Origin: Lewinella sp. LCG006
GTDB taxonomy: Bacteria > Bacteroidota > Bacteroidia > Chitinophagales > Saprospiraceae
Reading direction: 5' to 3'
Length of the DNA stretch: 64,000 nt
NCBI RefSeq assembly: GCF_040784935.1
Contig: NZ_CP160680.1
Span: 6,553,802 to 6,617,801, forward strand
Shown here in pieces: positions 6,129 through 39,652 of the stretch (the first letter of the stretch is position 1; each line of letters opens with the position of its first letter). The notes beneath the pieces are model-generated. The model was not told the origin of the DNA and did no database searches. It saw nothing but the letters and a program-made list of their open reading frames with translations. A program made the position numbers and the translations under genes.

Positions 6129-6135
6129 AAATAGC

Positions 6136-10986: not shown

Positions 10987-11021
10987 CTTTGTAAAAGTAT
11001 ATGATAAATAACGTGCAGTGG

Positions 11022-11070: not shown

Positions 11071-11103
11071 ATCAAAATTTACTTGCTGCATAATTAGTTT
11101 TTA

Positions 11104-15554: not shown

Positions 15555-15595
15555 ACATTAGTATTTTGATACTGAAAACGAAAAGTTCATTTAAT

Positions 15596-17107
15596 ATGAA
15601 AAAGATATTTCTCCTAATTTTTGTAGCCTCTTTTCTAGTTGCTTGTGAAGACGATCTGGACTTGGCTCCGATCTCACAAGTAGGTAGCAATGGTTTCTTT
15701 ACCAATGCAGGTGATTTTACCCAGGCCGTGAATGGCATTTACGCCAGCCTTGGAGTAACCGGCAATATGGACTATCCAAGCCTTTACGTCATTCTCGATG
15801 AATCACGTTCAGATAATATATACTGCCCCGGACAATCCGGTGTTCGTGATTGGAATGCCACCAATAATTTCTTGGCGACAATTGCTACCCTTGCCACCGT
15901 GGAGACGGCTTGGAATGTAGCTTTCAATGGCATCATGCGCGCCAACACAGTTCTTGATCAATTGCAAGCCAATGGTGGCGCGATTGGAGATGCTACCCTC
16001 GCCACTCAGTTTGAGGCAGAGGCAAAGTTCTTACGGGCTTTCTTCTATTTTGATCTCGTCAAGTGGTACGGGAAAGTCCCCTTGTTCGAAACTTTTGTAA
16101 CGCCGGATGAAGCCCTGCAAATCCCTCGTGCTGAAGTGGCAGACGTGTACAACCTGATTATTTCTGATCTGGATTTTGCCATTAGCAATCTTCCTGATGT
16201 TCAAACTGGTGCTAATCGCGGACGTGCATCGGCTCTGGCGGCAAAAGGTATCCTGGCACGGGTATACCTCACTCGTTCAGGCCCACAGCTACACCCTGAC
16301 GGGCCTTGCCTTGCTTCCAATGAGTACGATAAAGCAGCATTGCTACTTGATGACATTATAGGTAGTAATCAATATGCTATGCTGGATGATTTCGGTGCTA
16401 TTTTCGATTACGACAATGAAGGTAACGCTGAGATTGTTTGGGACATGCAATTCATCGGCGGTAGCGTTGGTGCTGGTGGCTACTACCCTACCGAATACTA
16501 CGATGAAGGATGGGCACGCATCAATCTGCCTTTCCCTGGGGGTAACCCCGGAGACGGTTCTAAGCGTATTTCTGAAGACCTCATCAACGATTATGAGGCT
16601 GGTGACTTGCGCTTTGATGAAACTTTCCTGGTAGATTATGTGGATGAAAACGGGGTAACCGTTGATGCACAGTTCTTCAATAAGTTCATGGACGTAAGTA
16701 AGGCTGGTGGTGATCGTTTCAACTGGTCACTGAACTATCCGGTATTACGCTATACTGACGTCTTGTTACTTCGTGCAGAATGTACTTTGCAAGGAGCACC
16801 TGGTTCTCAAACCGAAGTTGACGCAGCGGTGAATGCTGTACGCCAGCGTGCAGGTCTAGGTGATGTTTCAAACGTTACCCTTGATATGCTTTTGGATGAG
16901 CGCCGTCGGGAGTTCGCCGGAGAGAACCTTCGCTGGGACGACCTCGTACGCACCGGTAAAGTAGTAGACGTGATGAATAGTTTCATCGCTTCCGATGACG
17001 ACGACAATAAGATGCAAACCGTTACTTCTGACTTCGTGATTTACCCAATTCCACAAAAGCAATTGGATGTGAAGCTTGGTTTGTACCAACAGAATCCAGG
17101 ATACTAG
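15596..17107 (+). CDS. susD: SusD/RagB-type surface glycan-binding lipoprotein
   Basis: Outer-membrane lipoprotein that forms the lid of the SusC channel and binds the glycan. Start at the ATG at 15596 gives MKKIFLL and a lipobox SFLVAC with Cys near residue 17. The earlier possible start at 15566 would put ten extra residues before the signal. N-terminal helical TPR-like region (FLRAFFYFDLVKWYGKVPL) and C-terminal DERRREFAGENLRWDDLVRTGK are typical of the RagB/SusD family. Length is 503 residues. It follows susC by about 40 bp. A strong hairpin lies just after its stop codon. Confidence 0.96.
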   Translation: MKKIFLLIFVASFLVACEDDLDLAPISQVGSNGFFTNAGDFTQAVNGIYASLGVTGNMDYPSLYVILDESRSDNIYCPGQSGVRDWNATNNFLATIATLATVETAWNVAFNGIMRANTVLDQLQANGGAIGDATLATQFEAEAKFLRAFFYFDLVKWYGKVPLFETFVTPDEALQIPRAEVADVYNLIISDLDFAISNLPDVQTGANRGRASALAAKGILARVYLTRSGPQLHPDGPCLASNEYDKAALLLDDIIGSNQYAMLDDFGAIFDYDNEGNAEIVWDMQFIGGSVGAGGYYPTEYYDEGWARINLPFPGGNPGDGSKRISEDLINDYEAGDLRFDETFLVDYVDENGVTVDAQFFNKFMDVSKAGGDRFNWSLNYPVLRYTDVLLLRAECTLQGAPGSQTEVDAAVNAVRQRAGLGDVSNVTLDMLLDERRREFAGENLRWDDLVRTGKVVDVMNSFIASDDDDNKMQTVTSDFVIYPIPQKQLDVKLGLYQQNPGY

Positions 17108-17576: not shown

Positions 17577-19136
17577 ATGAAAATTCCTCGCTTACCCCTG
17601 TTAAGCCTGCTCTTCATTCTGCGTGTTTTTTGCTGTTCTCTAAGTGCAGCCATTCTCCTTCCTGATGTCCTTGCGGATAACATGGTATTGCAACGCCAGC
17701 AAAAGGTACCTGTCTGGGGTTGGGCAAGCCCTGGTGAAAGTATTGAAGTAACTTTCCACGATCAAATTCACCAGACGGAGGCGGATACGGAAGGGAAATG
17801 GATGATCTACTTACGGCCAATGAGTGCTTCTGCCACTCCTTCGTCTCTTACCATAAGCGGCGAAAATACCATTACCCTAAAAAATATTTTGGTCGGCGAA
17901 GTATGGCTTTGTACCGGCCAGTCCAACATGCAATGGCGACTATTAGAGTCTGCTGGTGGCGAGGAAGCCATCGCTAAGGCTAATTATCCCGATATCCGGC
18001 TGTTCAACGTAAGTCGTGAAGTAGGTTTTAAACATCAAGAGGGACGGCTAGCGACCTGGGAGTTATGTTCTCCGGAAACAGTGCCCTCCTTTTCCGGGGT
18101 AGGCTATTTCTTTGGTTTGGATCTATACCGTTTGTCAGGAGTTCCCGTCGGGCTCATCAATTCTTCCTACGGAGGGTCACAAGCGGAGGCCTGGACACCA
18201 CGGGAATTCTTGGCCGCATCAGAAGAGCTTGCTCCCTGCATCGCCAGAGAAGACATCTGGGCAGCAGAACGCCCTCAGGTACAAGCCAAATACGACGAAG
18301 ACATCGCCAATTGGAAAAAAGCGGTCGCTAAGGCGAAGGCCGAAGGCAGCAAACTTCCTAATCAACCCCGCTCCCCTGATGCTTTAAGAGATTACCGTAT
18401 AGCAGGGTCTATTTACGAAAACATGATAGCACCGCTCATCCCCTACGCTATCCGCGGCACCATCTGGTACCAGGGAGAATCCAACGAAGAACGAGCCGAA
18501 CAATACGAACTATTACTAACCACCATGATAGCGTCCTGGCGCAGCAAATGGGGCCAAGGGGATTTCCCCTTCGGCATCGTACAGCTCCCCAATTTTAGAG
18601 CCACCTCGGATGTTCCTCAAGACCTGGCCTGGAGTCACTTAAGAGACCGGCAACGCAAAGTCGCCGAACAGGTTCCCAACACCGGGCTGATCGTCACCAT
18701 CGACATTGGTGAGGCGGATGATATTCACCCGACCAATAAGTACGACGTAGGGATGCGGCTATCCCGCTGGGCGCAGCAGGCTGTTTATGGCTACGACCTA
18801 CTAGCGGGTGGGCCCGTATTTTCGCACGCCAAATTCCGCAAAGGAAAAGCTATCCTTTATTTCGACCAAGTCGGACAGGGCCTGCAAACTACTGACAGTC
18901 AAGCACCTCAAGAATTCGTCATCGCTGGTCCCGACCAGCAGTGGCACTGGGCCAATGCTAAAATCAAAGGCCGACGGAAAATTATTGTAGATGCCCAAAA
19001 AGTTGAGTTGCCTCAGGCTGTCCGGTATGCTTTTAACAACAATCCGGTTCAGCCCAATTTAACGAACGAAACGGGGGTACCAGCCTCTCCCTTTCGCACC
19101 GATACCTGGCTGGGGCCTACCCACGGCAAGCGCTAA
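17577..19136 (+). CDS. Sialate O-acetylesterase-like SGNH carbohydrate esterase, exported
   Basis: Probably removes O-acetyl groups from a sugar in the periplasm. A signal peptide covers about residues 1-24. LPDVLADNMVLQRQQKVPVWGWA is the typical opening of this family, followed by a beta domain. The catalytic block GQSNM carries the nucleophile Ser116. The oxyanion region GSQAEAWTP and the IWYQGESNEERA block lie further on, and DDIHPTNK supplies the Asp/His pair. Length is 519 residues. Despite the family name, rhamnogalacturonan acetyl groups are more likely substrates here than sialic acid, judging by the neighbouring GH105, GH106 and CE12 genes (inference). Confidence 0.88.
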   Translation: MKIPRLPLLSLLFILRVFCCSLSAAILLPDVLADNMVLQRQQKVPVWGWASPGESIEVTFHDQIHQTEADTEGKWMIYLRPMSASATPSSLTISGENTITLKNILVGEVWLCTGQSNMQWRLLESAGGEEAIAKANYPDIRLFNVSREVGFKHQEGRLATWELCSPETVPSFSGVGYFFGLDLYRLSGVPVGLINSSYGGSQAEAWTPREFLAASEELAPCIAREDIWAAERPQVQAKYDEDIANWKKAVAKAKAEGSKLPNQPRSPDALRDYRIAGSIYENMIAPLIPYAIRGTIWYQGESNEERAEQYELLLTTMIASWRSKWGQGDFPFGIVQLPNFRATSDVPQDLAWSHLRDRQRKVAEQVPNTGLIVTIDIGEADDIHPTNKYDVGMRLSRWAQQAVYGYDLLAGGPVFSHAKFRKGKAILYFDQVGQGLQTTDSQAPQEFVIAGPDQQWHWANAKIKGRRKIIVDAQKVELPQAVRYAFNNNPVQPNLTNETGVPASPFRTDTWLGPTHGKR

Positions 19137-19178: not shown

Positions 19179-20399
19179 ATGCGATACTCCTTCAGTAGTC
19201 TGATCATCTTTATTGTCTTATTCTCCCTCTGCTCCTGCAAAACGGCAGTACCTGTTTTAGAAACAGGAGGTAGCAACCCCATGCCAGAGGAATGGGTAGA
19301 TCAAACAACGGGCCATCGCATGCAACGATTAACGGCTGCTGACGACACCCGCAGCTTCTATTTCCACAATGATCCTTTCCTGAAAAGCACTGATGGAAAA
19401 ACCGATTTAATGGTCTATTACGGCAAAGTAGAAGACGTTAGCCAGTTGTTTACCATCAATTTGCAAACCCGTAAAATAGAACAATTGACGACCTCCCCCG
19501 GCAGAAAAGGTGGTGAAATCTTGGGTAAAAAAAGGCGTGAGGTTTTCTACCAAACACAGGACACCGTCTTTGCCACCCATATAGATACCAAGGAGACCCG
19601 TGCCGTTTTTGTTTTCCCTGATGATTTTAAAGCTCACATCACCACGCTGAATGCTGACGAAACCAAGTTAGCGGGCACCTGGGCTTCCCCCGAAAAGGAT
19701 ACCATTCTGATGAATTACCCCAGCAAGAGCGAGTTCTTTGATCGAATTTTTGATGCTAATCTATTGCACAAGCTTTTTTATATCGACCTTGAAACGGGAG
19801 CACTGCAAACCATTCACGAAGAAAACACCTGGCTCGGACACATCCAGTTTTCAACGACCGACCCTGATATGCTCATGTTTTGCCACGAAGGTCCCTGGCA
19901 CAAAGTAGACCGCATCTGGAATATCAATCTTGCCAGCAATGTAGTCACGAAAATTCACGAACGCACCGTCGACCGGGAGATTGCCGGCCACGAATTTTGG
20001 AGTTGGGATGGGAAGACCATCTGGTACGACCTACAGATCCCTCGCGGGGAGACGTTCTATCTCGCTGCCTACGACCTTGAGTCGGCGACGATGAAGAAAT
20101 ACCAAATGGACCGCAATGAATGGTCCATCCACTTTAATATCGCTCCCGACCAGCAGCTTTTTTGCGGTGATGGAGGAGACCCCTCCCAAGTAGCCAAGGC
20201 CGAAGATGGCATGTATATTTACCTCTTCACCCCCAAGGATGATCAGCTTCAATCACAGCGCTTGGTCAATATGCAACACCACAATTACAAGCTGGAGCCC
20301 AATGTCCATTTTTCACCAGATGGTGAGTGGATTATCTTTAGAGCTAACTTTGAAGGGACGAGTCACATTTATGCGGTAGAGGTAAAGCCCTATCAATAA
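19179..20399 (+). CDS. Oligogalacturonate lyase-like protein (PL22 type), lipoprotein
   Basis: Seven-bladed beta-propeller lyase that would cleave short, unsaturated galacturonides to 4-deoxy-5-keto sugars. Family blocks are clear: NTWLGHIQFS, MFCHEGPWHKVDRIWN, IAGHEFWSWDGKTIWYD and a C-terminal QHHNYKLEPNVHFSPDG. These carry the histidines expected for the active site and metal site. Unlike the classical cytoplasmic enzyme it begins with a lipoprotein signal (FSLCSC), so it should act outside the cytoplasm. The 406-residue length fits. It might instead act on rhamnogalacturonan fragments, given the locus. The family is firm; the exact substrate is open. Confidence 0.87.
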   Translation: MRYSFSSLIIFIVLFSLCSCKTAVPVLETGGSNPMPEEWVDQTTGHRMQRLTAADDTRSFYFHNDPFLKSTDGKTDLMVYYGKVEDVSQLFTINLQTRKIEQLTTSPGRKGGEILGKKRREVFYQTQDTVFATHIDTKETRAVFVFPDDFKAHITTLNADETKLAGTWASPEKDTILMNYPSKSEFFDRIFDANLLHKLFYIDLETGALQTIHEENTWLGHIQFSTTDPDMLMFCHEGPWHKVDRIWNINLASNVVTKIHERTVDREIAGHEFWSWDGKTIWYDLQIPRGETFYLAAYDLESATMKKYQMDRNEWSIHFNIAPDQQLFCGDGGDPSQVAKAEDGMYIYLFTPKDDQLQSQRLVNMQHHNYKLEPNVHFSPDGEWIIFRANFEGTSHIYAVEVKPYQ

Positions 20400-20409
20400 T
20401 CCAGAAAGA

Positions 20410-23361
20410 ATGAATCATTATTTACCATCCTTCGTCTATTTAGTAGGCCTTTGCAGCCTCCTGCTCACGTCCTGTGGCGACAATATTCCCACAAGCTCCC
20501 TCTCTCAACAGCCCGCTTGGCCGGAAATCACCAGCGACACCAAAGTCTGGACCCGCTGGTGGTGGCACGGTAGCGCCGTCACAAAAGAAGGCATCACTTC
20601 CGAAATGGAAACACTTCAGGAGGCCGGTTTTGGGGGGCTGGAACTCACCCCCATCTTTGGCGTCATCGGGGAGGAAGAAGATTTTGTAGCGTACCTCTCC
20701 CCTCGCTGGATGGAGCTACTGGACCATACGCTGGCAGAAGCTCAGCGACTAGGTATGCAAATAGACATGGCCACCGGCACTGGCTGGCCGTTTGGTGGCC
20801 CTTGGGTAACACCGGAGGATGCTTGTAAGTATTTGGCGCACAAAACGTACACCTTATCAGCTGGCGAGCAGCTTAAGGAAAAAGTAGTCTATACCCAAGA
20901 ACCTATCTTCCGCCGCATCAATAACGGAGCTCTCCTCTTGCATCAGGCTTCGGAAGCATCGGGAATTCCCTATGCGGAGTTGGATCCCAAAAAAGTATTC
21001 CAGGAAGCCCGGAAAATCACGCTCGAAGACATTAAACAACCCATTTCGGCCAACGAAGACCTCCAAATGCTGGCACTAGATCAGATACGCTTCGCAGAGG
21101 ATCTGCCATTGCTTACCCTGATGGCCTACAGTGACCAGGGGCAAGTCATTGACCTTACGGAAAACGTTTCCGCCAACGGCACACTCAACTGGACAGCTCC
21201 CCTAGGACAGTGGACACTCTACGCCCTCTTTACTGGTCAACACGGCAAAATGGTGGAGCGTGCTGCGCCCGGTGGAGAAGGCAACGTGATTGATCACTTC
21301 TCCAAAGATGCCATCAATCACTACTTGCAACGTTTTAATACTGCTTTTGAGGGGCATGACGTCAGTTTGTTACGTGCATTTTTTAATGATAGCTACGAAG
21401 TTGATGACGCGCGTGGACAAGCCAATTTTACGCCTTCTTTCTTTGCCGCTTTCGCGGAAAAACGGGGCTATAACCTCCGGGAACATTTACCTGCACTTTT
21501 TGGTCAGAGTTCCCCCGAAGAAAATGCGCGTATCCTATCCGATTTTCGGGAAACCTTCTCTGATCTAATTCTGGAAACCTTCACCCAGGAATGGAATGCC
21601 TGGGCGGATGATCAAAAGGCCATGGTCAGGAACCAAGCGCACGGCTCGCCCGCCAATATTCTTGACCTCTATGCAGCTTCCGACATTCCGGAAGCAGAAG
21701 GTACGGAGCGCTTGCGGATCAAGTTTGCCAGCTCCGCAGCTCACGTTACCGGACAGCCTTTGGTAGCTGCCGAGGCTGCGACCTGGCTGGATGAGCACTT
21801 CGTTGCCAATTGGGCCAACCTCAAAGAAAACCTTGACCGCTACCTGGTGAATGGGGTTAATCATTTGGTTTACCACGGCAATACTTACTCACCTAAGGAC
21901 GATGCTTTTCCCGGTAGGTTATTCTATGCGGCTTTCCACGCCAACTCCCGCAACCCCATGTGGAAAGACCTCCGGGCGGTAAACGAATACGTCACACGCA
22001 CCCAATCTTTCCTCCAGCAAGGCACCAGTGCAAATGATATTTTGCTCTATTTTCCTATCTATGATCGTTTTGCAACCACCACCGAAGAACTGCTACAACA
22101 CTTTGATGGTCACGGCCCCCACCTCGACGAGACTGCCGTAGCAGAGATTGGAGAACAGCTGCTGGACGCTGGCTACACTTTCGATTTCATCTCTGATAAG
22201 CAATTACAAAAAAGCACCTTCAACGGAGCTATCCATACCGAAGGCGGCAGTTACAAGACGATTATCGTTCCCGCTACACAGTATATTCCAGTGGCCACCT
22301 TTGCTACGCTGATGGAGCTCGCGAAGTCTGGTGCGACGATTATCTTCCAGGAAGAATTGCCCGTATCCGTTCCCGGCTGGGGAGATTTACAGCAACGCCA
22401 GGAGGCGTTAAACACTATGAAAAACGATTTGACTTTTAACGCTGTAAACGGACAGTCTGCCGCCAAGGTAGGAACGGGGCAATTCATCCTTGCCAGCCAG
22501 TGGGAACAAGCACTTGCCAGCACAGGTATCCAGGCGGAAGCCATGGTAAAGCAAGGCTTGGCGTTCTCCCGTCGGAATTACCAGGATGGACAACTTTACT
22601 TTATTACCAATTGGACGGATGCCACTGTAGATAATTGGGTCTCGCTGGCTGCTGTTGGAGCTACTGCCGTGCTCTTTGACCCCATGACGGGCGCGCAAGG
22701 TACAGCGCAAACGAAGCCATCCGAAGCTGGGACAACCGATGTAATGTTGCAGCTTGCTCCGGGCAGCTCCCTCCTCGTTTGGGTCAGCCCGAATGATGTG
22801 GAAGGGAATGATTGGCCTTACTACCAAAAGACAGCAACCGAAATGGTACTTGCAGGCCCTTGGAGTGTGGAGTTTCTGCAAGGAGGCCCCACCTTACCCG
22901 CTAAGCTGAATTTACCCCAAGTCGCACCATGGAACGAGCAACCGGAGGAAGCTTACCACTTCTTCTCGGGCACTGGTCGTTATCAAACCACTTTTGAGCG
23001 TCCTTCGGGTACTGGTGAAGCTTATCTGCTGGATTTAGGAAAGGTTTATGAAACGGCCAGTATACAACTGAATGGCAGGCAACTAGCAACACTCGTTGGG
23101 CCAACCTACCAGTTGCTTATCCCTGCCGTTCAATTGCAGCAGGAAAATACCCTGACGATTGATGTCTCTAATCGCCTGATCAACCGGATCATCAAAATGG
23201 ATCGCGACAAATTACCGTGGAAGAAGTTTTACAACACCAACATTCCTCCACGCTTACGCGAAAACGCAGGGCCACTCGGTATCTTCGATGCTGCCAAGTG
23301 GGAACCTGTGGCCTCTGGGCTAGCTGGACCGGTAACCTTGACAAGCTTGGAGAAAAAATAA
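20410..23361 (+). CDS. GH106-type alpha-L-rhamnosidase, lipoprotein
   Basis: Releases terminal alpha-L-rhamnose, from rhamnogalacturonan in characterised members. The protein has a lipoprotein signal (LLLTSC). The GH106 opening follows: KVWTRWWWHGSAVTKEGI, then GFGGLELTPIFG and MATGTGWPFGGPWV. Further typical blocks are FFNDSYEVDDA, ARNQAHGSPANILDLY-like and VNHLVYHGNTYSP. The last 150 residues form a galactose-binding-like beta domain (TGEAYLLDLGKVYETASIQLNGRQ). Length is 983 residues. It begins 10 bp after the PL22 gene, in the same transcription unit. It is the only clearly recognisable rhamnosidase in the locus. Confidence 0.88.
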   Translation: MNHYLPSFVYLVGLCSLLLTSCGDNIPTSSLSQQPAWPEITSDTKVWTRWWWHGSAVTKEGITSEMETLQEAGFGGLELTPIFGVIGEEEDFVAYLSPRWMELLDHTLAEAQRLGMQIDMATGTGWPFGGPWVTPEDACKYLAHKTYTLSAGEQLKEKVVYTQEPIFRRINNGALLLHQASEASGIPYAELDPKKVFQEARKITLEDIKQPISANEDLQMLALDQIRFAEDLPLLTLMAYSDQGQVIDLTENVSANGTLNWTAPLGQWTLYALFTGQHGKMVERAAPGGEGNVIDHFSKDAINHYLQRFNTAFEGHDVSLLRAFFNDSYEVDDARGQANFTPSFFAAFAEKRGYNLREHLPALFGQSSPEENARILSDFRETFSDLILETFTQEWNAWADDQKAMVRNQAHGSPANILDLYAASDIPEAEGTERLRIKFASSAAHVTGQPLVAAEAATWLDEHFVANWANLKENLDRYLVNGVNHLVYHGNTYSPKDDAFPGRLFYAAFHANSRNPMWKDLRAVNEYVTRTQSFLQQGTSANDILLYFPIYDRFATTTEELLQHFDGHGPHLDETAVAEIGEQLLDAGYTFDFISDKQLQKSTFNGAIHTEGGSYKTIIVPATQYIPVATFATLMELAKSGATIIFQEELPVSVPGWGDLQQRQEALNTMKNDLTFNAVNGQSAAKVGTGQFILASQWEQALASTGIQAEAMVKQGLAFSRRNYQDGQLYFITNWTDATVDNWVSLAAVGATAVLFDPMTGAQGTAQTKPSEAGTTDVMLQLAPGSSLLVWVSPNDVEGNDWPYYQKTATEMVLAGPWSVEFLQGGPTLPAKLNLPQVAPWNEQPEEAYHFFSGTGRYQTTFERPSGTGEAYLLDLGKVYETASIQLNGRQLATLVGPTYQLLIPAVQLQQENTLTIDVSNRLINRIIKMDRDKLPWKKFYNTNIPPRLRENAGPLGIFDAAKWEPVASGLAGPVTLTSLEKK

Positions 23362-27063: not shown

Positions 27064-29211
27064 ATGAAGTACCTCCTACTGAGTGTTTGGGTAGCCTTGC
27101 TTGTCATTAACTATGGCCCGGTTTTACCCAAAAAATCCTCGATTGATCGTTTGGCCTTGGTGACCAGGAACAATCCTCGCCTAACGAGCATGGATACCCT
27201 GGGTAGTCTTACGGTAGGTAATGGTCGCTTCGCTTTCACCGTAGATGCAACCGGCCTGCAAAGTTTCCCTGAGTATTACGACCATGGCATCTCTCTCGGC
27301 ACCCAATCCGAATGGGGCTGGCACAGTTTTTCAAACACGGGAAACTACATTTTGAAAGACGTTTTGGTAGATTATGAAACTTGTAATGATCATTCCTATC
27401 CCATTGCGATCCAGCACAAAGAAGGGCGCGCAAAAGCGGCGGCAGATTGGCTACGCATGAATCCCCAGCGCTTGCACCTGGGCCTGATCGGTCTGGAATT
27501 CAAAGATGCAAATGGCGGGGTGCTGGACCAAAGTGCCATTAAGAATATTGATCAAGAACTTAACCTTTGGACGGGGGCAATCCACAGCAAATACACCATT
27601 GATAACCAGCCTGTAGAAGTGACCCTCTACGCTCATCCGGAGGAGGATGCTATTGCGTTCAAAATCACCTCGCCTCTCATCGAAGCTGGGCGTCTCAGCG
27701 TCACATATCGTTTTCCCAATGCCAAGCGCTGCCACGTTTGCCCTGCTTACGACTGGGATACCGAGGAGGAGCATCAGACAAAAATCATCCAGCAAGACCA
27801 GCATAATTTCCGCGTTGAACGAACGCTGGATAGCACCCGTTTCTTTGTTGCGGCAAGCTGGCAGGAAGATGCAGTAATGGAACAGACCGGGGCACACGCG
27901 TTTGCCCTCAGGCCTCATCCACAAGCCAAATCGCTTACGGGAAGTGTACGTTTTGAGTCTAAGGCCGATGCATCGACTTTACCCAATTACCAACGAACAC
28001 TCAAAAAAAGCACCAAAGCCTGGAAGGCCTTCTGGCAAGAAGGAGGAGCCATCGATTTCTCGGCCTGCACCGATGCCCGGGCACCGGAGTTAGAGCGGCG
28101 CGTCGTACTCTCTCAATACCTTACCCGCGTTCAGTGTACCGGACAGTATCCTCCGCAGGAGACGGGGCTGACGATGAATAGTTGGTACGGCAAGTTTCAT
28201 TTGGAGATGCACTGGTGGCACGGCGTTCATTTCGCTTTATGGAACCGGCTTCCGCTCTTGGAAGAATCGCTACCCTGGTACCAGGATGCCCTGCCCAATG
28301 CCCGATCTACTGCTAAACGGCAGGGGTTTGCGGGCGTTCGTTGGCAAAAAATGACGAGCCCGGAAGCGCTCAGTAGCCCTTCTAGCGTAGGTGAATTCCT
28401 GGTTTGGCAGCAGCCCCATCCCATCTATTTTGCGGAATTGGTTTATCGTCAAAAGCCTACACAGGAAACTTTGGAAAAGTACCAGGAGATTATATTTGAA
28501 ACAGCCGATTTCATGGCTGACTTTGCTCAACTCAGTAAAACCGATGGCAAGTATCACCTTTGTGCTCCGATCATACCCGCCCAGGAGATTTTTCACGCCA
28601 CGGAAACCAACGATCCTCCGTTTGAAGTGGCCTACTGGCATTACGCGCTTGGCGTAGCACAACAGTGGCGCCTCCGTTTGGGATTGGAACCTAACCCAGA
28701 ATGGCAGGAGGTGTTGGATGGACTCGCTCCCCTCCCCCAACATGATGGCTTGTACCTCCCTTGTGCAGGAGCTACTGAGGCTTACACCGATGATGAAAAT
28801 CGCAGAGACCACCCCATTGTCACCGGTGTCCTGGGCATGTTGCCCGCCGGCCCGCACGTAGATCCCGCCATCATGGGAGCTACTTTCGACGAAATCATGG
28901 ATAACTGGCAATGGGAAACGACCTGGGGTTGGGATTACCCTATGCTAGCGATGTCGGCAGCTCGTTTGGGAAAACAAGATCAAGCCATTGAAGCCTTGTT
29001 TTTGGCTGCGAATAAGAATACCTACCTCTTAAATGGACATAATTACCAGGACGAAAGGCTACGTCTCTATCTACCCGGTAACGGTGGTTTACTCACGGCC
29101 GTAGCCATGATGGCTGCGGGTTGGGACGGAGCACCAGACATTGCCCACCCAGGCTTCCCGCAAGATGGCACCTGGAATATCCGTTGGGAAAACTTACAGC
29201 GGATGCCCTAA
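27064..29211 (+). CDS. Exported six-hairpin glycosidase-like protein of unassigned family
   Basis: A 715-residue protein with an N-terminal signal segment (YLLLSVWVALLVINYG). It begins one base after the stop of the preceding gene. The start of the mature protein contains DTLGSLTVGNGRFAFTVDATGLQSFPEYY and GTQSEWGWHSF, a pattern seen in uncharacterised Bacteroidota proteins and reminiscent of GH65/GH95 N-terminal beta domains. The C-terminal half is helical with LEMHWWHGVHFALWNR, TTWGWDYPMLAMSAARLG and LYLPGNGGLLTAVAMM, as expected of an (alpha/alpha)6 barrel. I cannot name the family or the bond it cuts. Its position among GH106, GH105 and GH31 genes indicates a glycosidase of this pathway. 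Confidence 0.72.
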   Translation: MKYLLLSVWVALLVINYGPVLPKKSSIDRLALVTRNNPRLTSMDTLGSLTVGNGRFAFTVDATGLQSFPEYYDHGISLGTQSEWGWHSFSNTGNYILKDVLVDYETCNDHSYPIAIQHKEGRAKAAADWLRMNPQRLHLGLIGLEFKDANGGVLDQSAIKNIDQELNLWTGAIHSKYTIDNQPVEVTLYAHPEEDAIAFKITSPLIEAGRLSVTYRFPNAKRCHVCPAYDWDTEEEHQTKIIQQDQHNFRVERTLDSTRFFVAASWQEDAVMEQTGAHAFALRPHPQAKSLTGSVRFESKADASTLPNYQRTLKKSTKAWKAFWQEGGAIDFSACTDARAPELERRVVLSQYLTRVQCTGQYPPQETGLTMNSWYGKFHLEMHWWHGVHFALWNRLPLLEESLPWYQDALPNARSTAKRQGFAGVRWQKMTSPEALSSPSSVGEFLVWQQPHPIYFAELVYRQKPTQETLEKYQEIIFETADFMADFAQLSKTDGKYHLCAPIIPAQEIFHATETNDPPFEVAYWHYALGVAQQWRLRLGLEPNPEWQEVLDGLAPLPQHDGLYLPCAGATEAYTDDENRRDHPIVTGVLGMLPAGPHVDPAIMGATFDEIMDNWQWETTWGWDYPMLAMSAARLGKQDQAIEALFLAANKNTYLLNGHNYQDERLRLYLPGNGGLLTAVAMMAAGWDGAPDIAHPGFPQDGTWNIRWENLQRMP

Positions 29212-29250
29212 ACGCATTATTTGCAATACTATCATGAAAACAAAGCTATT

Positions 29251-30378
29251 ATGAAATATCTCACACTTCTGCTTTTTACCTTGCTGCTGGGAGCATGTCG
29301 CACGACAGCCAAGCTTCCAGAAACCGACCGTATTCTGGCTGATTTGCGTTTAGCCAATTCCTACTTTATGGAAAAATGGCCGGACACCGGTAAACGCATC
29401 GTCACCAATAAATCACGTGCTAGTAATATCTGGACCCGTGCCGTTTATTACGAAGGCTTAATGGCATTGCACCGGCTCGATCCCCAGCCCGCCTACTATG
29501 ATTACGCCGTTGACTGGGCGACCTTCCACAATTGGGACCTGCGGGATGGCGACACCTATACGCGTAACGCAGATAATCAATGTGCCGGGCAAACCTACAT
29601 TGAGCTGTACCAAATCGATCCACAACCCGAACGGATCAAATCCATCAAAGCTTCCATTGACAGCATGATGAATACCGATAAGATTGATGACTGGAACTGG
29701 ATTGATGCCATTCAGATGGGGATGCCCATCTTTGCTCAACTAGGCGTTTTGTACGATGATCCTGCCTACTTTGAACGCATGTACCAGATGTATAGCTTTG
29801 CTAAGAACGAGCACGGTGACAATGGTCTATACAATCCCGCCGATCACCTTTGGTGGCGAGATGCTGACTTTGACCCACCTTACACCGAACCCAACGGCGA
29901 AGATGCTTACTGGTCGCGGGGAAATGGCTGGGTAGTTATGGCCCTGGCCCGGGTATTGGAATTGATCCCGGAAGACGAGCCCCACCGTGCGGAATACGTC
30001 CAGGATTTCAAAGATATGATGGCAGCCCTCCTTAAAGTACAGCGAGAGGATGGTTTCTGGAACGTAAGTCTACACGATCCTACTCACTTTGGTGGCAAAG
30101 AAACTTCAGGTACCGCCATGTTTGTTTACGGCATGGCCTGGGGCGTCAATAACAATATCTTAGATCGCAAAACCTACGTACCAGCACTGACCAAAGGCTG
30201 GAATGCCATCACCAAAGACGCTTTGCACGACAACGGTTTCCTAGGTTATTTACAAAGTACGGGCAAAGAACCCAAAGACGGGCAACCTCTCAGCTACGAT
30301 AAGATTCCTGACTTTGAAGACTACGGTCTGGGGGCTTTCCTCCTGGCGGGTACCGAAGTTTATAAGCTGGCTAATTGA
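29251..30378 (+). CDS. GH105 unsaturated rhamnogalacturonyl hydrolase, lipoprotein
   Basis: Removes the unsaturated uronic acid that a polysaccharide lyase leaves on the non-reducing end of its products, by hydrating the double bond. The ATG at 29251 gives MKYLTLLLF and lipobox LLGAC. A TTG at 29221 would add ten residues before the signal. The (alpha/alpha)6 barrel of the GH88/GH105 clan is recognisable in NIWTRAVYYEGLMAL, WNWIDAIQMGMPIFAQLG (catalytic Asp about residue 152), NPADHLWWRD, YWSRGNGWVVMALARVL and ETSGTAMFVYGMAWGVN. Length is 375 residues. It implies that a lyase acting on the same glycan exists elsewhere in the genome. Confidence 0.92.
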   Translation: MKYLTLLLFTLLLGACRTTAKLPETDRILADLRLANSYFMEKWPDTGKRIVTNKSRASNIWTRAVYYEGLMALHRLDPQPAYYDYAVDWATFHNWDLRDGDTYTRNADNQCAGQTYIELYQIDPQPERIKSIKASIDSMMNTDKIDDWNWIDAIQMGMPIFAQLGVLYDDPAYFERMYQMYSFAKNEHGDNGLYNPADHLWWRDADFDPPYTEPNGEDAYWSRGNGWVVMALARVLELIPEDEPHRAEYVQDFKDMMAALLKVQREDGFWNVSLHDPTHFGGKETSGTAMFVYGMAWGVNNNILDRKTYVPALTKGWNAITKDALHDNGFLGYLQSTGKEPKDGQPLSYDKIPDFEDYGLGAFLLAGTEVYKLAN

Positions 30379-30408: not shown

Positions 30409-32586
30409 ATGAATATTCAAGCCAAATCACTAACGAAGCTCTTATTGGGAGATTCAATTCGGACAATTTTCCGAAGGTCTTACACCAAGCCATTCCTCGG
30501 ACTCATTACATTTTTAGCCATCAGCCTGAGTGCTTGTACTCCGCCAGCGGAAGAAACTGCTGCGGTAAAGGTCACCATTGACGAAGCGGGCTACCCTGTG
30601 GTTACCATAGAGAACGCTGGCGGTGCGCCCGTAGTCATGCAAGCCGTTTCAGCGACCATTGGCAGTATCGGCTTTGATCGGGGCGGACAACAAACCTGGG
30701 TAACCGGCGCCCCGGAAACCACCAAAAAAGAAGACGGAAAAACGGTTTACCAATGGACTACCGACAGCGGTAAGGTATCCTTGACCGTTGAACCCGCCGA
30801 AGGAGATGACCTACTCGTTCACCTCGCCATCGACAGCAAATCCGAGGAACATCACCAATGGCTGATCAACCTGGCGGCGAGTCAGGAAGAATACTTTACG
30901 GGTATTTTCGAACGTGTAGTAGATGGTGGTCAGCAAGAATCCTGGAAAGACGGTATCAGCACCGGCATGAACTTGCGGGGAGAACGGGTGGAAATGCACC
31001 TCAAACCCACGGTTTCGGCCTACGCTCCTTTCTATATTTCTTCTGCTGGCTATGGCTTCTTTGCGCACGGTACCTGGCCGGGGGTCTTTGATTTTGCGCA
31101 AGCAAATCCCAATTCCGTTCAAATCTCGTTTGAAGGGCCAGCCCTAACTTATCAACTCTACCTTGGCAAAGGCGTGAAAGAAATTGTTCAGCAACATGCT
31201 TTGGAGACGGGTCCATCCTTGGTTCCTCCAGCATGGGCACTGGGGCCTTGGCGCTGGCGCGATGAGCATTTCAACAAGGATACTTATTACGACGGAACGC
31301 CCAAAACAGCTCCCTATAATACGGATGTGGTAGAGGACGTGCTCATGATGAAAGCCTACGATATTCCCTGTACAGCCCACTGGATTGATCGCCCCTGGGG
31401 GCCTGGTGTTCGTGGTTTTGATGATTATGATTTTGATTTAGACCGTTTGCCAGAACCAGAAAAGATGATCTCCTGGTTGAACAAAAATGACGTTGAACTC
31501 ATGCTTTGGATCGGACCCTTCGTGATGGGAGAGATGGCGGATTATGCCGAAGAAAACAACTACGATCTACAAAGTCACCGTTGGAAAGACTCTCGTCAGG
31601 TGCTCATGGATTTCACCAATCCAGAAGCGGTGGCCTGGTGGGGCGAAAACGGTCCGGGTAAGCTCGCACGCATGGGCGTAAAAGGCTTTAAATTGGATCG
31701 CGCCGACGGAGAAAAACTCCAGGACTCCCTCCACCTGCTAACCCACGCCGGAACGACCTACCGGGAAAACTTCAATGATTATCCCCGCCAATATGTAGAA
31801 GCTACTTATAAGGCAGTACAACCCGTACTGGGCGACGATTTTGTCCTCTTTCCACGGGCGCAATACACGGGCAGTGCTAAATTCGGCAGCATGTGGGCTG
31901 GTGATACCAATGGCAAACCCGAAGGGCTACGCTCGGCCATCATTGCGATGCAACGTTGTGCCGTGATGGGGTACCCCGTGTGGGGATCAGATATTGGCGG
32001 TTACTGGGGCGATTTCTCACAGGAAACCACCAAACGCTGGCTAGGACTGGGCTGCTTCTCACCGATTATGGAAACGGGGCCGACCAACAACACCGGTTTT
32101 TGGAATAACCCGGAAGCTCCCGTTTACGATCCTGAGCTGATTGCGACCTGGCGCCTGTACTCCAAGCTGCGGATGAAGCTGGTCCCTTACGTCAGCAAGC
32201 TGGCGGAAGAAGCGCGCGCAACGGGTACACCGATCGCTCGTCCATTATTCCTTGAATATCCTGAACAAAAGGAAGCCTGGGAAGATTGGCAGACTTATCT
32301 CTTTGGTCCTGATTTGCTGGTTTCCGTGGTTTGGGAATCCGGCAAAACCAGCCATCGTGTTTATTTGCCCGCAGGCGCCCAATGGATAGACGCCTGGGAT
32401 ACCACCAAGGAATACGAAGGCGGGCAGTACATCACCGTGGATGCTCCTGCTTATAAAACGCCTGTCTTCCTGCGGAAGGGTACGGATCTGGAATTGGGTG
32501 ATTTGAATGCCCTCTACCAGGAATCGCTAAAAATTGCTGCAACTAAGCCCGATCTGGCAGCGATGGAAAGTAAAGAAACCTGGTAA
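30409..32586 (+). CDS. GH31 family glycosidase, lipoprotein
   Basis: Retaining alpha-glycosidase of family 31. A long positively charged N-terminus precedes the membrane segment ending ISLSAC, so it should be lipid-anchored. An N-terminal beta domain is followed by the TIM barrel. The nucleophile is Asp430 in KGFKLDRADG. The acid/base is Asp499 in MWAGDTNG. PVWGSDIGGYWGD and the C-terminal beta domain (ARPLFLEYP, FGPDLLVS) are typical. Length is 725 residues. The linkage it cuts is not fixed by the family: alpha-glucoside, alpha-xyloside and alpha-galactoside activities are all known. The locus suggests a side-chain sugar. Confidence 0.9.
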   Translation: MNIQAKSLTKLLLGDSIRTIFRRSYTKPFLGLITFLAISLSACTPPAEETAAVKVTIDEAGYPVVTIENAGGAPVVMQAVSATIGSIGFDRGGQQTWVTGAPETTKKEDGKTVYQWTTDSGKVSLTVEPAEGDDLLVHLAIDSKSEEHHQWLINLAASQEEYFTGIFERVVDGGQQESWKDGISTGMNLRGERVEMHLKPTVSAYAPFYISSAGYGFFAHGTWPGVFDFAQANPNSVQISFEGPALTYQLYLGKGVKEIVQQHALETGPSLVPPAWALGPWRWRDEHFNKDTYYDGTPKTAPYNTDVVEDVLMMKAYDIPCTAHWIDRPWGPGVRGFDDYDFDLDRLPEPEKMISWLNKNDVELMLWIGPFVMGEMADYAEENNYDLQSHRWKDSRQVLMDFTNPEAVAWWGENGPGKLARMGVKGFKLDRADGEKLQDSLHLLTHAGTTYRENFNDYPRQYVEATYKAVQPVLGDDFVLFPRAQYTGSAKFGSMWAGDTNGKPEGLRSAIIAMQRCAVMGYPVWGSDIGGYWGDFSQETTKRWLGLGCFSPIMETGPTNNTGFWNNPEAPVYDPELIATWRLYSKLRMKLVPYVSKLAEEARATGTPIARPLFLEYPEQKEAWEDWQTYLFGPDLLVSVVWESGKTSHRVYLPAGAQWIDAWDTTKEYEGGQYITVDAPAYKTPVFLRKGTDLELGDLNALYQESLKIAATKPDLAAMESKETW

Positions 32587-32588
32587 TC

Positions 32589-34655
32589 ATGCGAATTACC
32601 TATTTACTGTTTTTGGGTAGCCTCTTTCTTCTGACGAGTGTTCAGAAGGAAGAGGCTGATCCACCCAACATCATCTTCATCATGGTTGACGATCTCGGCT
32701 ATGCAGACTTGGGCTGTTACGGGCAGCAGGTCATCCAGACGCCACGGATCGATGCGCTGGCGGCGGAAGGTATCCGTTTTACGCAGTGCTATGCCGGGTC
32801 TACGGTATGTGCGCCCTCGCGCTCAGTCCTGATTACGGGGCAGCATACCGGACACACCACAGTGCGAGGAAACATGGGCATTGGTGGCGTCATTGGGTTG
32901 GGAGGCGCTGCCGGGCGTATTCCCTTGCAAGCGCAAGATACGACCATTGCGGAGCTGTTAAAAACCGCTGGCTATACCACCGGCATGATTGGCAAATGGG
33001 GCCTGGGTGAACCCGCAACGACGGGCATGCCCGACCAACAAGGGTTCGATTATTTTTACGGCTACCTCAACCAGCGGCGCGCACATACCTATTTTCCAGA
33101 TTACGTTTGGCGCAACGACCAGCGGGTAGAATTCCCTGAGAATGAGAACTCGCGGCATAATGATTATATTCAAAACCATTTTCTTGCCGAATCCTTAGAC
33201 TTCATTGAACGACATCATAAGGAGCCGTTTTTTCTCTATCTGCCCTACACTTTACCCCACGACGAGTATGAGATTGACCATCAGGGACGGTTTGCAGATT
33301 CTACGCATTGGACGGAGCCTGAACGCACCTACGCAGCAATGGTCGAACGTATGGATCGGGACGTTGGCAGGGTATTGGATCAGTTGGACAAGTACGGCTT
33401 AGCAGAAAACACCATGGTCTTCTTCTGTTCCGACAACGGTGCCGCTCAACGCTGGGACGGGCGCTTTGATAGCTCTGGTCCATTGCGTGGCCGCAAACGG
33501 GACCTGTACGAAGGCGGTATCAGGGTACCCATGATCGTTCGTTTCCCCGGACAGATAGCCGCTGGATCTAGCAGTGACCTCCCCTGGACTTTTGCTGATG
33601 TATTGCCTACCTTATGTGCTATTGCGAACGTCAAACCACCTGTAAACATTGACGGTAGCAACCTCTGGGGACATTTCATGGGGCAAGTCTCCGAGGCTCC
33701 TCTCTATGATCGCACCCTTTACTGGGAATTCCACGAAAGGGGCTTCCAGCAAGCAGTTCGTAAAAGCAATTATAAAGCCATCCGTTTAGGGCCAGACCAG
33801 GCGTGGGAGCTTTACAATTTGTACAATGATCCTGGGGAAGAGGAGAATATTGCCGAAAAATTCCCGCTCATCACAAAAGAATTGTCCGGAGAAGCGACGA
33901 AGGAGCACGTGCCTTCGCATTTCTTTCCGATACTCCGGGAAGGTGTTCGTCGCAAAGTAGTTTTGATTGGAGATTCCACAGTAAAAAACGGCAGCAAAGA
34001 CGAAGACCTGTGCGGTTGGGGAGAAGTGTTGACTCCCTTTTTTGATACGACGAAAGTCGAAATCATCAACCAGGCCCGTGGTGGACGCAGCAGTAAAACC
34101 TACCTCAAAGAAGGCCTCTGGGCCGAAACCCTGGCGATGGTTGGCGAAGGAGATTTCGTGATCATGCAATTCGGCCATAACGACGGTGGGCCTATTTTTA
34201 CACAAAAAGAACGCGGTTCGCTACTGGGTACGGGTGAAGGTTTTCAAATCGAGAAGCTATCCTCTACGGACCAAGCCGATACTGTTCACACCTACGGCTG
34301 GTATTTGCGGCAGTATATCAGAGACACTAAAGCCAAAGGGGCTATACCCATCGTATGTTCCATGGTACCTCGCAATCGCTGGGTCGATGGTGCCGTCGAG
34401 CGAACTGCGGATAGCTACGGCGGATGGGCTGCCCAAGTGGCCCGCGAAGAGCAGACGTATTTTATTGATTTGAATGAAAACGTCGCGGCCATTTACGATA
34501 CCATTGGGGAGGAGCAGTTGTGGAAGCAATATTTCAAGGAAGACCACACACATACCACCTGCTACGGTGCGGAACTCAACGCCAAAAGTGTTGCCTTGGG
34601 TTTGCGAGAACTCCCCTATTGTCCGCTGGCCACGTTTTTGAACTTACCTAAATGA
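32589..34655 (+). CDS. Fusion of an S1-type sulfatase and a CE12-like rhamnogalacturonan acetylesterase
   Basis: The 688-residue exported protein has two complete enzyme domains. After a signal peptide, residues about 25-440 form a type I sulfatase: NIIFIMVDDLGYADLG metal site, the CAPSR formylglycine motif with Cys74, GKWGLGE, FFCSDNGA and the usual ending ELYNLYNDPGEEENIAEK. Residues about 455-688 are an SGNH esterase of the CE12 type: VVLIGDSTV (block I), GGRSS, MQFGHNDGG and DHTHTTCYGAELNA (Asp/His pair). One reading frame runs through the junction with no stop. It starts 2 bp after the GH31 gene. The domain pair implies a glycan carrying both sulfate and acetyl esters (inference). The Cys needs conversion by a maturase not found in the window. 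Confidence 0.9.
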   Translation: MRITYLLFLGSLFLLTSVQKEEADPPNIIFIMVDDLGYADLGCYGQQVIQTPRIDALAAEGIRFTQCYAGSTVCAPSRSVLITGQHTGHTTVRGNMGIGGVIGLGGAAGRIPLQAQDTTIAELLKTAGYTTGMIGKWGLGEPATTGMPDQQGFDYFYGYLNQRRAHTYFPDYVWRNDQRVEFPENENSRHNDYIQNHFLAESLDFIERHHKEPFFLYLPYTLPHDEYEIDHQGRFADSTHWTEPERTYAAMVERMDRDVGRVLDQLDKYGLAENTMVFFCSDNGAAQRWDGRFDSSGPLRGRKRDLYEGGIRVPMIVRFPGQIAAGSSSDLPWTFADVLPTLCAIANVKPPVNIDGSNLWGHFMGQVSEAPLYDRTLYWEFHERGFQQAVRKSNYKAIRLGPDQAWELYNLYNDPGEEENIAEKFPLITKELSGEATKEHVPSHFFPILREGVRRKVVLIGDSTVKNGSKDEDLCGWGEVLTPFFDTTKVEIINQARGGRSSKTYLKEGLWAETLAMVGEGDFVIMQFGHNDGGPIFTQKERGSLLGTGEGFQIEKLSSTDQADTVHTYGWYLRQYIRDTKAKGAIPIVCSMVPRNRWVDGAVERTADSYGGWAAQVAREEQTYFIDLNENVAAIYDTIGEEQLWKQYFKEDHTHTTCYGAELNAKSVALGLRELPYCPLATFLNLPK

Positions 34656-34662
34656 GTCCGCT

Positions 34663-35600
34663 ATGAAGACAACACTGCCCATTACATTGCTGGTGCTGCT
34701 TTCTCTAGCCTGTCAGCGACAAGCGGATACCGTCTATCTTTTTTCTTTTTTTAAAAACAATGGACAAGACGGTCTCCACCTTGCTTACAGCAGTGATGGG
34801 CTGAACTGGACAGCCTTGAACAACAACCAGTCTTATTTGGCACCCACCGTTGGCGAAGCCAAACTGATGCGTGATCCTTGTATCATTCGAGGTGGCGATG
34901 GGCGCTTCCACCTGGTTTGGACCGCTGGCTGGAACGAGAAAGGAATCGGCTACGCGCATTCCGATGACTTAGTAAACTGGTCCGAACAACAGTACCTTCC
35001 CGTCATGGAACACGAACCAGAAGCACTTAACTGTTGGGCACCAGAGCTGTTTTACGACGAATCCTCTCAAAGGTACCTGATCTATTGGGCGACGACGATT
35101 CCCAATCGCTTTCCCGACACGGATTCTACGGGAGACAAGGGTTATAATCACCGTATTTACGCTACTACGACCGAGGATTTTCAAGCATTTTCGCCGACAG
35201 AACTGTTCTACGACCAAGGGTTCAATGTAATTGATGCGATGGTCAAAAAGAGCAGCCAGGAATATGTTCTATTCTTGAAAAACGAGGTCAGATATCCGCA
35301 ACCAGAAAAAAACATCCGTATCGCCCGCAGCCCCCAACTCACTGAAGATTACGGTGATGCTTCCAGCCCGATTACCCCCGAGGGGGTTTGGGTAGAGGGG
35401 CCCACTGCGCTACAAATCAAAGATAGCTGGATCGTTTACTACGATCAATATATCGATCACAGGATGGGTGCTGTGCGCTCTCAAGATTTGGTCAACTGGG
35501 AGGATATTTCTGATCAAATACATTTCCCGGACGGGACGCGGCACGGCACCGTCTTTACGGTAAGCAAAAAGGAGTTTGAAAAACTAACCAGCGTACGACC

Positions 35601-35604
<4 letters not shown>
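34663..35604 (+). CDS. GH43-like beta-propeller glycosidase, lipoprotein
   Basis: A 313-residue protein with a lipoprotein signal (LLSLAC). The rest has the repeat pattern of a five-bladed beta-propeller hydrolase: DGLHLAYSSDGLNWT, MRDPCIIRGGDGRFHLVWT, IGYAHSDDLVNWSE, CWAPELFYD, and VEGPTALQIKDSWIVYYD near the end. The Asp in MRDP and the Glu in VEGPTA are good candidates for catalytic residues of the GH43/GH32 clan. Alpha-L-arabinofuranosidase or beta-galactan activity would suit a rhamnogalacturonan side chain, but the sequence does not decide this. It overlaps the next gene by four bases (ATGA). Confidence 0.82.
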
Positions 35605-36682
<1,078 letters not shown>

Positions 36683-36686
<4 letters not shown>

Positions 36687-39538
36687 AATGCTCTGAAATC
36701 AAACCACAGCTTCATACTTATTCCCTCATCTCCACTTTTGATGCGGATACTCGTAGGCTGACTTTTAGGTCCGTGATGAGGAATGTCTTTGAAAGACCGC
36801 ATCGCTGGAATTTCGTACATAAAGGAAAGGTTACCTGAAGGAAAATCAGGCTGCGGATGGCTCCCCGGAAGCGCGTACTTAGGTTCATCGGGAGTAAACA
36901 GCCGGAGAAATAGCTGCTCAGATTCACTGAAAACGCGCAAGCTATTGCCACCAGCTTGCAAATGCCCCCCCAGAAAGTTGGCATAATAGCCCTTGAACTC
37001 CGGATAGATGAGGTTTTCGTAGCTTTCTCCAGTGATGGTCGTGTTGTATGTCTTATCCCACAAACCATAGTTTGTGCCCCTGATCCGGTTCTTCCAGACG
37101 TGAAATGGGCCGCGGCCAAAGAGGCGAATGCCTTCAACTCCTTCCTCTGGAAAATCGAAGGTGATGCCAAAACTATTGATCTGATCTTCAAAAAACGCAC
37201 CGTCGAAACCATTGCTGCGACCGGCGTTTTCCAGGGCGAGCATCTCCATTTTCAGGCGTCCATCCGAGTGCATGGTCCACGTTATCGAATGAATGCCACC
37301 GGTGTATTCTACTACACAACCGGCCAGATCATCCTTTTGGAAAGTCGTCACTGCCTTTATTGCCGCCTCCATCCCGATGGGTTGAGGCCCGTTGGTAAGT
37401 GGTATTTGCTGTTCCCCATTGTTCACACTCCGAATCACGCCACTATCCTGATCAATAATCACTTCTACTTCTCCCCCCTTTAGGATAATAGAATGCTCCC
37501 TCTTCTGAACCGTGGCTCCTACTATTGTTGGTTCTTTGCGAACAAATTTCTCGGCAAAACTTGCGGCTTTATGCAGCGGCCAGGTCCAGGTGTTGAGCAA
37601 GCGACCATGCTGATCGGTGGCTTGAATTTCTATCCAATCCCCCGAAAAGAACGCCTCTGACAGCGGGACGTTGATCCGGCGCGTTTCTCCCGGCAGGATA
37701 GAAGGTAGATCAATATCTCCAGCCACCACGGTGTCTGTTTTGGCCACTTCGTAAAAAGCGGCATCGCTGGCTCGCAACACGCGGTAATTCATTTTACAGG
37801 TATTCAAATCAGTGAACAAGTAAGCGTTACTGATCAGGAAATTGCCGTTAAAAGATGGAGTAATCATGGTGGGAGCAAACTGAATGGGCGACCAAATATC
37901 TCGTACCGTATAAAAACTCCCCTCCTTTTCACGATGTGGCCCTAGAATACCATCGGGAGCGAGAGAACCTACCCCGTCGTACTTGCGCTCGCCCGTCCAA
38001 TCGCTACGCAGCACGGCTTCGTCACAAAAGGCCCACATAAAAGCCCCCGCAAAAAGTGGACTTTCCAGGTACTGCTTCCAGAAATCTTCCAGGCCCGCGC
38101 CATGGCCATTGTCATAGGTACCGTGCATGAATTCGGTAGGAAAGAACACGTGTTCCCCGGCCCCAAAACGGTGAACACCGGTTTGATAGGTAGGATAATG
38201 ATGGGTATCCCAACCATTATAATCCGACCAAGGGTGAATGACAATCCGCTTTTGCGGATCCAGTTCTTCAAAAAGATAATCCAGATCGGTGTTCCATCCA
38301 CCTTCATTGCCATGGTCCCAAATGATGACAGAAGGGTGATTGACATCCCGCTGCACCATCTCACGGATCAGCTTTTCGCCAAGCTCTGTATCGTAACCAT
38401 TTTGCCAACCTGCCAGCTCGTCCAATACCATAATACCAAGGGAATCACAAGCATCCAGAAAATGATCATCGGGAGGATAGTGATTGCGCACGGCGTTCAT
38501 GTTCATGTCTTTCAGTAATTGTACATCCATGAGGCTGATTCGCTTGCTCGTACTCCGACCAGATTCCGGCCAAAAGGTGTGGCGATTGATGCCTTTCATG
38601 ATGATTTTCACGCCGTTGAGATAGATGCCATCGTCTTTACGAAAATCGAGGGTGCGAAAGCCGATGCGTTTAGTATACCGATGTAGCACCTTTCCGTCTT
38701 CTACTACATCAAGTTGCAAATCGTAGAGGTGAGGGGTCTCCGGTGTCCAGGGCTTTACCCCCACCCAGCTTACTTGTATGTTGGGCGTTGATAAGTCATT
38801 CCCCAGTTTAATGATTTTTGCAGGAAATGCTTCTTTTGAACTGACGTGTTGAATAGTAGCTATAATATGTGCCGTTGCAGGTACATTTTCCAACACTAAA
38901 TCAGCTGTCAGTTGCCCATCCATCCGAGCATCGATAGCGGCGTAAGCAATACGCGACATCGGAGCGATTTCCAGCCACACGGGTCGGTAAATACCGCCAA
39001 ACAGCCACCAGTCCGCCTTGCGTTCAGCTGCATTTACAGAAGCGTTTTCCGAATGTTTAGAGACGTGAACTTCCAAAAGGTTTTCTTTCCCTGGGTAAAT
39101 CAGTTCCGTTACGTCATACTTGAATTCGTAAAAACCTCCCTGGTGAATGGGCCCAGCAGACTTGCCATTGATCTTTACTTCAGTATCGGTCATCGCTCCA
39201 CCAAAGACCAGCGTGATATTTTTACCACGCTGGTTTTTGGGAACGGTGAAACGATAGCGATAAAACCCTTCTTCCTGGCTCGGTGCTTCCAGCTCAAGTT
39301 CCTTGTACCACCGTCCGTAAGTGTATTCACCAAAACCTGCCAACTCCCATTGTGAGGGTACAGGAATGGTCGTCCACACCTTACTATTCCTTCCTTCAGA
39401 ACACTTGAATTCCCAGTTAACTGGATGTTCAAAATCTGGACCAGAAAGATATTGTTTGAGAGTCGCTTGTGTAAAAGAAGTACTGGCAATAAATAACAAT
39501 ACCAGTAAGAGATACCACTTAAGCGTAAAATGTAGCAT
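36683..39538 (-). CDS. GH2 family beta-galactosidase-like glycosidase, exported
   Basis: Retaining exo-beta-glycosidase with the LacZ domain order: jelly-roll sugar-binding domain (residues about 60-200), immunoglobulin-like domain, TIM barrel, second Ig-like domain and a C-terminal beta-sandwich. The acid/base is Glu412 in WDHGNEGG and the nucleophile is Glu469 in FPTEFMHG. I start at the ATG at 39538, which gives a clean signal peptide (WYLLLVLLFIASTSF) and 951 residues. The longer frame would use a TTG at 39589. It lies on the opposite strand from the rest of the locus but closes it. Removal of galactose from rhamnogalacturonan side chains is the likely role. Beta-galactosidase is the commonest activity of this architecture, not proven here. 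Confidence 0.9.
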
Positions 39539-39652
39539 ATAGAGACGTTGGATTATTCGTTTTCTTTGCGAAAAAAGCCTCTTTAACAAGACTTAAAAAA
39601 CAGCTTTTTCTTGCAAAGGATATTACCCTAAAAATAAGGAATAAAATCTACT

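Follow-up and report, generated by a model that had tools for sequence, protein, structure and literature searches.

Sulfatases joined to other catalytic domains are already known. FA22250 of Formosa agariphila (6hr5), presumably a member of the ulvan pathway, carries an S1_25 sulfatase module joined to a rhamnosidase; it resembles the fusion protein described here in linking a sulfatase to an enzyme of a rhamnose pathway, whereas the partner here is an esterase. In Polaribacter, PbSulf1-GH195 combines an S1_51 sulfatase with a glycoside hydrolase, is secreted via the T9SS and acts on diatom mannan, and its two parts are encoded by separate genes in O. pacifica (PMC13063451). As in PbSulf1-GH195, a sulfatase is paired here with a second catalytic domain that would act on the same glycan, but that domain is an esterase. 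For this esterase half the described counterpart is the CE12 rhamnogalacturonan acetylesterase of Aspergillus aculeatus (1deo), with which its SGNH blocks and DxxH pair align; the fungal enzyme is single-domain, whereas the CE12 domain of the fusion lies C-terminal to a sulfatase and lacks a signal peptide of its own. The nearest solved relatives of the sulfatase half, the S1_20 enzymes BT1636 and BT1622 of Bacteroides thetaiotaomicron, have a His in the same motif, but they are single-domain and linked to mucin glycans. A paper describing a sulfatase-CE12 esterase fusion was not found in the open-licence literature searched, in keeping with the original prediction, whose author knew of no described example of this pair; CE12 appears to be a new partner for a sulfatase.

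The fusion is encoded in the 64,000-nucleotide stretch of DNA that was analysed as a whole (the window; Table 1). It had been predicted to form one uninterrupted frame comprising a full S1 sulfatase, with CAPSR at Cys74, and a full SGNH esterase with GDST, GGRSS, GHND and DHTHT, and all of this was confirmed. Pfam matches cover residues 26-347 (Sulfatase, PF00884, E 1e-59), 303-424 (SGSH_C) and 457-666 (GDSL/SGNH, E 4e-10 and 6e-8), and the motifs start at residues 74 (CAPSR), 461 (GDST), 498 (GGRSS), 529 (GHND) and 652 (DHTHT). The sulfatase half is assigned to S1 by its formylglycine motif (CAPSR, residues 74-78), its sulfatase fold and a D-D-D-N/Q calcium site (D34, D35, D282, N283) that aligns with the site described for AMOR_S1_16A. 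The esterase half is assigned to CE12 by its SGNH blocks and DxxH pair (S463, G499, N531, D652, H655) and by its significant similarity to 1deo (E 2e-29), the closest solved structure for the C-terminal part. Both domains are complete and probably active. Little sequence separates them: the CE12 core starts near residue 455, and an unfused relative (L149) ends just past the equivalent of residue 448. The AlphaFold model reached a pLDDT of 93.9 and a pTM of 0.90. The protein is probably exported; a lipobox cysteine is absent from its signal, and the orthologue in L012 has a lipobox-like start.

Searches at the level of the order (298 genomes) and of the family (398 genomes) recovered the same two-domain protein from six further genomes (L009, L010, L011, L012, L118/L146 and L119/L148), all in frame and 57-66% identical to the window copy. 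Altogether, the fusion occurs in seven genomes of four genera within one family, presumably the Saprospiraceae. When the examined catalytic positions of both domains were compared in an alignment of the seven fusions, D34, D35, C74, R78, K136, H166, H224, D282, N283 and K303 of the sulfatase and S463, G499, N531, D652 and H655 of the CE12 domain were invariant. Beyond the family searches, the S1-CE12 fusion was not found in about 930 sampled genomes of three phyla: no other fusion was present in a 395-genome sample of the phylum (E 1e-90; scoring was limited to the top two candidates of each genome), nor was one seen among the long frames examined after searching Planctomycetota (294 genomes) and Verrucomicrobiota (240 genomes) with a CE12 query. 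Several candidates were rejected. The long sulfatase frames in L157-L161 and L163 owe their extra length to sequence upstream of the sulfatase and contain no CE12 domain, in that of L164 a long stretch follows at the C-terminal end, again with no CE12 domain, and the long CE12 frames of Planctomycetota and Verrucomicrobiota carry GH106, SASA, GH35, pectate lyase or several CE12 domains instead of a sulfatase. L076 encodes a free-standing CE12 protein with its own signal-like start rather than a broken fusion. Since six further fusions are in frame, a frameshift or stop near position 33,940, which the original prediction had named as one possible refutation, is excluded. That an assembly or sequencing artefact had fused two neighbouring genes has a negligible probability: such separate but neighbouring sulfatase and CE12-like genes do exist in one genome (G329), but the same in-frame fusion in seven genomes refutes this explanation, and the genome containing the window consists of one contig.

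By both sequence and fold, the solved structures closest to the sulfatase half are 7ana/7anb, which we take to be BT1622, and 7an1/7oqd, which together with 9thu represent BT1636, the S1_20 3S-Gal sulfatase. VIA-align gave a Z of 50.6 and an rmsd of 1.9 for 7anb (model residues 25-448) and a Z of 50.0 and an rmsd of 1.7 for 7an1 (residues 23-450), with 414 residues aligned in each case, and a fold search with the whole fusion model matched sulfatases only. In the sulfatase tree, the fusions share a group of 72 rows (99/99) with BT1622 and BT1636, to the exclusion of the S1_16 and S1_19 references; within it, the subgroup that includes the fusions is sister to that of the two S1_20 references, the two outgroup references being long branches. 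His166, invariant in the fusions, aligns with the His in the AHLYYP stretch of BT1636, presumably the residue that contacts the axial O4. The substrate of BT1636 is 3-O-sulfated galactose, the axial O4 of which is recognized by a His (review). The alignment of His166 with a His of BT1636 hints at a galacto-configured target sugar. The loop aligned with HEEGG of BT1636, which follows SDNG, differs in the fusion, and BT1636 and BT1622 are just 38-39% identical to it across the aligned fold; therefore, the position of the sulfate may differ from that cleaved by BT1636. The fusions furthermore form one clade (100/99) with unfused sulfatases of Saprospiraceae (L013, L038, L149), so that the CE12 part was either lost or gained more than once there. 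In the genome, 14 matches to the formylglycine-generating enzyme (FGE) family reach the cut-off; the strongest (263 bits) and a cluster of other sulfatases are about 12 kb apart.

The fusion gene belongs to an operon (Table 1), upstream of which lies a rhamnose catabolism block whose minus-strand genes encode permease-like, lactate-dehydrogenase-like and rhamnulokinase-like proteins, rhamnose isomerase and rhamnulose-phosphate aldolase/dehydrogenase; the names of the permease and the regulator are sequence readings. SusC, SusD, SASA, GH106, DUF4450, GH88/105, GH31 and the fusion are shared, in this order, by five genomes (that of the window, G280, G296, G290 and G208), with SusC cut by the end of the fetched stretch in some of the other four and with a short SASA match, possibly a broken gene, in G208. 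PL22 is present in three of the five copies (window genome, G296 and G208), whereas two copies (window genome and, with 61% identity, L142 of G208) include the 715-aa protein. This last protein may represent an as yet unassigned family of glycosidases; DUF4450 was mentioned in no paper found in the open-licence literature searched. The GH43 pair was not seen in the other operon copies and GH2 lies outside the conserved operon, which makes a galactan side chain uncertain. Two fusions have other surroundings: in G376 the gene adjoins GH2 and a permease-like gene outside the operon, and near that of G436 no operon gene was recognized. GH2 relatives adjoin the sulfatase in L148 and L149, and in G176 an unfused sulfatase of the fusion's clade adjoins the rhamnose block. 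As a side observation, the sulfatase and a distant CE12-like protein of G329 (L149, 5262-8050) come from two neighbouring genes, next to GH2 and a permease-like gene, a layout much like that of G376, where the two are fused.

Table 1. Features of the window, with positions counted from its first nucleotide.
Feature	Position	Strand	Basis or remark
Rhamnose catabolism block and GntR-like regulator	3484..12135	enzymes -, regulator +	
SusC-like (12417-15554) and SusD-like (15566-17107) pair, operon head	12417..17107	+	Pfam; kept in four other genomes
SASA-type carbohydrate esterase	17577..19136	+	relatives beside GH106-CE12 in three Planctomycetota
PL22-like oligogalacturonate lyase	19179..20399	+	relative fused to CE12 in L096
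GH106 alpha-L-rhamnosidase	20410..23361	+	best NCBIfam match BT4145, below the model's cut-off
DUF4450 protein, putative glycosidase, 1218 aa	23406..27062	+	conserved in all five operon copies
715-aa protein without Pfam match	27064..29211	+	weak kojibiose-hydrolase match
GH88/GH105-family unsaturated uronyl hydrolase	29221..30378	+	conserved
GH31 glycosidase, immediately upstream of fusion	30409..32586	+	conserved
S1 sulfatase-CE12 acetylesterase fusion, 688 aa	32589..34655	+	open frame from ATG to stop; Pfam; six orthologous fusions
Probable export signal, helix 2-16	32589..32654	+	sequence reading; helix in AlphaFold model
S1 sulfatase domain, residues 26-448	32664..33932	+	Pfam and structural alignment
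CAPSR formylglycine motif (Cys74, Arg78)	32808..32822	+	invariant in seven fusions
Junction, residues 449-456	33933..33956	+	alignment with fusions and unfused L149
CE12-type SGNH esterase domain, residues 457-667 (Ser463, Gly499, Asn531, Asp652, His655)	33957..34589	+	
Two GH43-family genes (34663-35604, 35601-36686), downstream of fusion	34663..36686	+	
GH2	36683..39589	-	best NCBIfam match BT4156 exo-beta-1,4-galactosidase, below the model's cut-off

With its SusC/SusD pair, rhamnosidase and unsaturated uronyl hydrolase, the locus has the gene set by which a rhamnogalacturonan-I (RG-I) locus was recognized; it is called RG-I-like only, because the whole genome gave no match to PF18370, the model for the PL11 RG-I lyase. 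Its GH106 is BT4145-like and its GH2 BT4156-like, and both references presumably belong to the RG-I locus of B. thetaiotaomicron (BT4145-BT4183). The window differs from that locus: neither match reaches its equivalog cut-off, a sulfatase gene is included and PL11 was not found in the genome. Elsewhere in the genome (L194/L195, 5.552-5.590 Mb), a homogalacturonan locus encodes GH28, PL1 with a secretion tail, a CE8-type pectinesterase and a free-standing CE12, as well as UxaC, a sugar kinase, a TRAP transporter and altronate-type enzymes, and the organism therefore handles ordinary pectin. The operon of the window has the look of a second system, RG-I-like and equipped with a sulfatase, and the glycan looks pectin-like, the sulfatase alone pointing away from ordinary land-plant pectin. 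Alternatively, the substrate might be another sulfated rhamnose-uronate polymer, possibly one resembling ulvan, an exopolysaccharide from microalgae or bacteria, or an arabinogalactan capped with rhamnose-glucuronate, on which the CE12 domain would no longer have its role in pectin. The families GH105, GH106, GH31, GH43 and GH2 have no pectin specificity and land-plant pectin is rarely sulfated; moreover, the lack of a PL11 match and the wide distribution of relatives of the sulfatase in Planctomycetota and Verrucomicrobiota favour such a polymer. We nevertheless regard it as less likely, given that GH106 and GH2 match enzymes of the RG-I locus best, that the same CE12 clade is paired with PL22 and pectate lyase elsewhere, and that a PL22 gene is found in the operon and a pectin locus in the organism. 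The expectation of a rhamnose- and uronate-containing glycan is thus in accordance with the operon, whereas setting a putative marine or algal glycan against land-plant pectin was not supported in view of the RG-I-locus-like GH106 and GH2, the CE12 fusions to PL22 and pectate lyase and the homogalacturonan locus.

Furthermore, CE12 domains were found joined to other enzymes. GH106-CE12 proteins are encoded in three Planctomycetota (L173, 3187-6699; L174, 3148-6603; L176, 3101-6568); their GH106 parts are 37-39% identical to the C-terminal three quarters of the window GH106, and in all three a SASA esterase gene is adjacent. A MAG of the Pirellulales encodes a PL22-like lyase joined to CE12 (L096, 8681-10786), and L188 (11146-13455) a CE12-pectate lyase, the lyase part of which has no Pfam name but matches PDB 9buj (E 2.9e-46, Planctomycetota search). 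Two esterases share one chain in the CE12-SASA proteins of L162 (2847-5081), L177 (1247-3481) and L180 (1111-3375), the last two of which came from the Planctomycetota and Verrucomicrobiota searches. In the CE12 tree, the domains fused to S1, GH106, PL22 and pectate lyase form one clade with the free-standing CE12 of L076 (95/98), outside which the SASA-fused domains are placed; the S1-fused group is weakly resolved (48/84). One CE12 clade has hence been shuffled among four partners, namely sulfatase, GH106, PL22 and pectate lyase, which is a new observation. Apart from pectate lyase, the CE12 partners (SASA, PL22, GH106 and the sulfatase) are encoded in the window operon, so that we infer that the enzymes joined to CE12 serve one pathway. 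CE12 also occurs in tandem, as gene pairs in several Chitinophagaceae (L078, L087, L104, L109, L114 and others) and as repeated domains within one chain (L070, L089, L178, L179 and L181).

On balance, we slightly favour an enzyme with two de-esterifying modules, encoded in a polysaccharide-utilisation locus (PUL) of Saprospiraceae that serves an RG-I-like glycan bearing sulfate and acetate. This proposal builds on two domains with intact catalytic positions, a conserved fusion and operon and an FGE family member in the genome; against it stand the two fusions outside the operon (G376 and G436) and the failure to find PL11 in the genome. Following this, we propose that the protein would be exported by way of its signal-like start and that the formylglycine-generating enzyme of the genome would convert Cys74. 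The N-terminal S1 domain would then cleave a sulfate ester, its likely target being a galacto-configured residue (galactose or galacturonate) attacked in exo mode, and the C-terminal CE12 domain would use the Ser-Gly-Asn-His mechanism to take O-acetyl groups off a residue that is probably galacturonate. Both de-esterifications may unblock imported oligosaccharides for PL22, GH88/105, GH106, GH31 and GH2 of the operon. Close proximity of the two esters on the target, as originally predicted, is plausible. The fusion might also be catalytically neutral, ensuring merely equal export and dosage of two domains that act on different oligosaccharides of the pathway, which concerns the benefit of the fusion and fits either glycan. 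We give this nearly an even chance: the two domains meet end to end over a short joint, close relatives carry the sulfatase on its own, and the same type of CE12 is joined to sulfatase, GH106, PL22 and pectate lyase across lineages, whereas retention at 57-66% identity across four genera and the defined arrangement suggested by the pTM of the model speak against it.

For the bacteria concerned, the bimodular enzyme suggests that chains carrying both sulfate and acetate exist and are eaten. More tentatively, and with somewhat less confidence than an even chance would warrant, a sulfated, acetylated RG-I-like pectic glycan and a dedicated bacterial pathway for it may exist, in which the CE12 clade would be an interchangeable catalytic module, combined in different phyla with sulfatase, GH106, PL22 or pectate lyase as enzymes of this one pathway. 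The fusion offers a simple test case for whether two de-esterifying domains strip neighbouring decorations faster once they are joined, and CE12 shuffling a sequence-only means of grouping pathway enzymes, which predicts functions acting on the same oligosaccharide. Descriptions of sulfated pectic glycans are few, and an enzyme removing both esters would offer a direct handle on their discovery.
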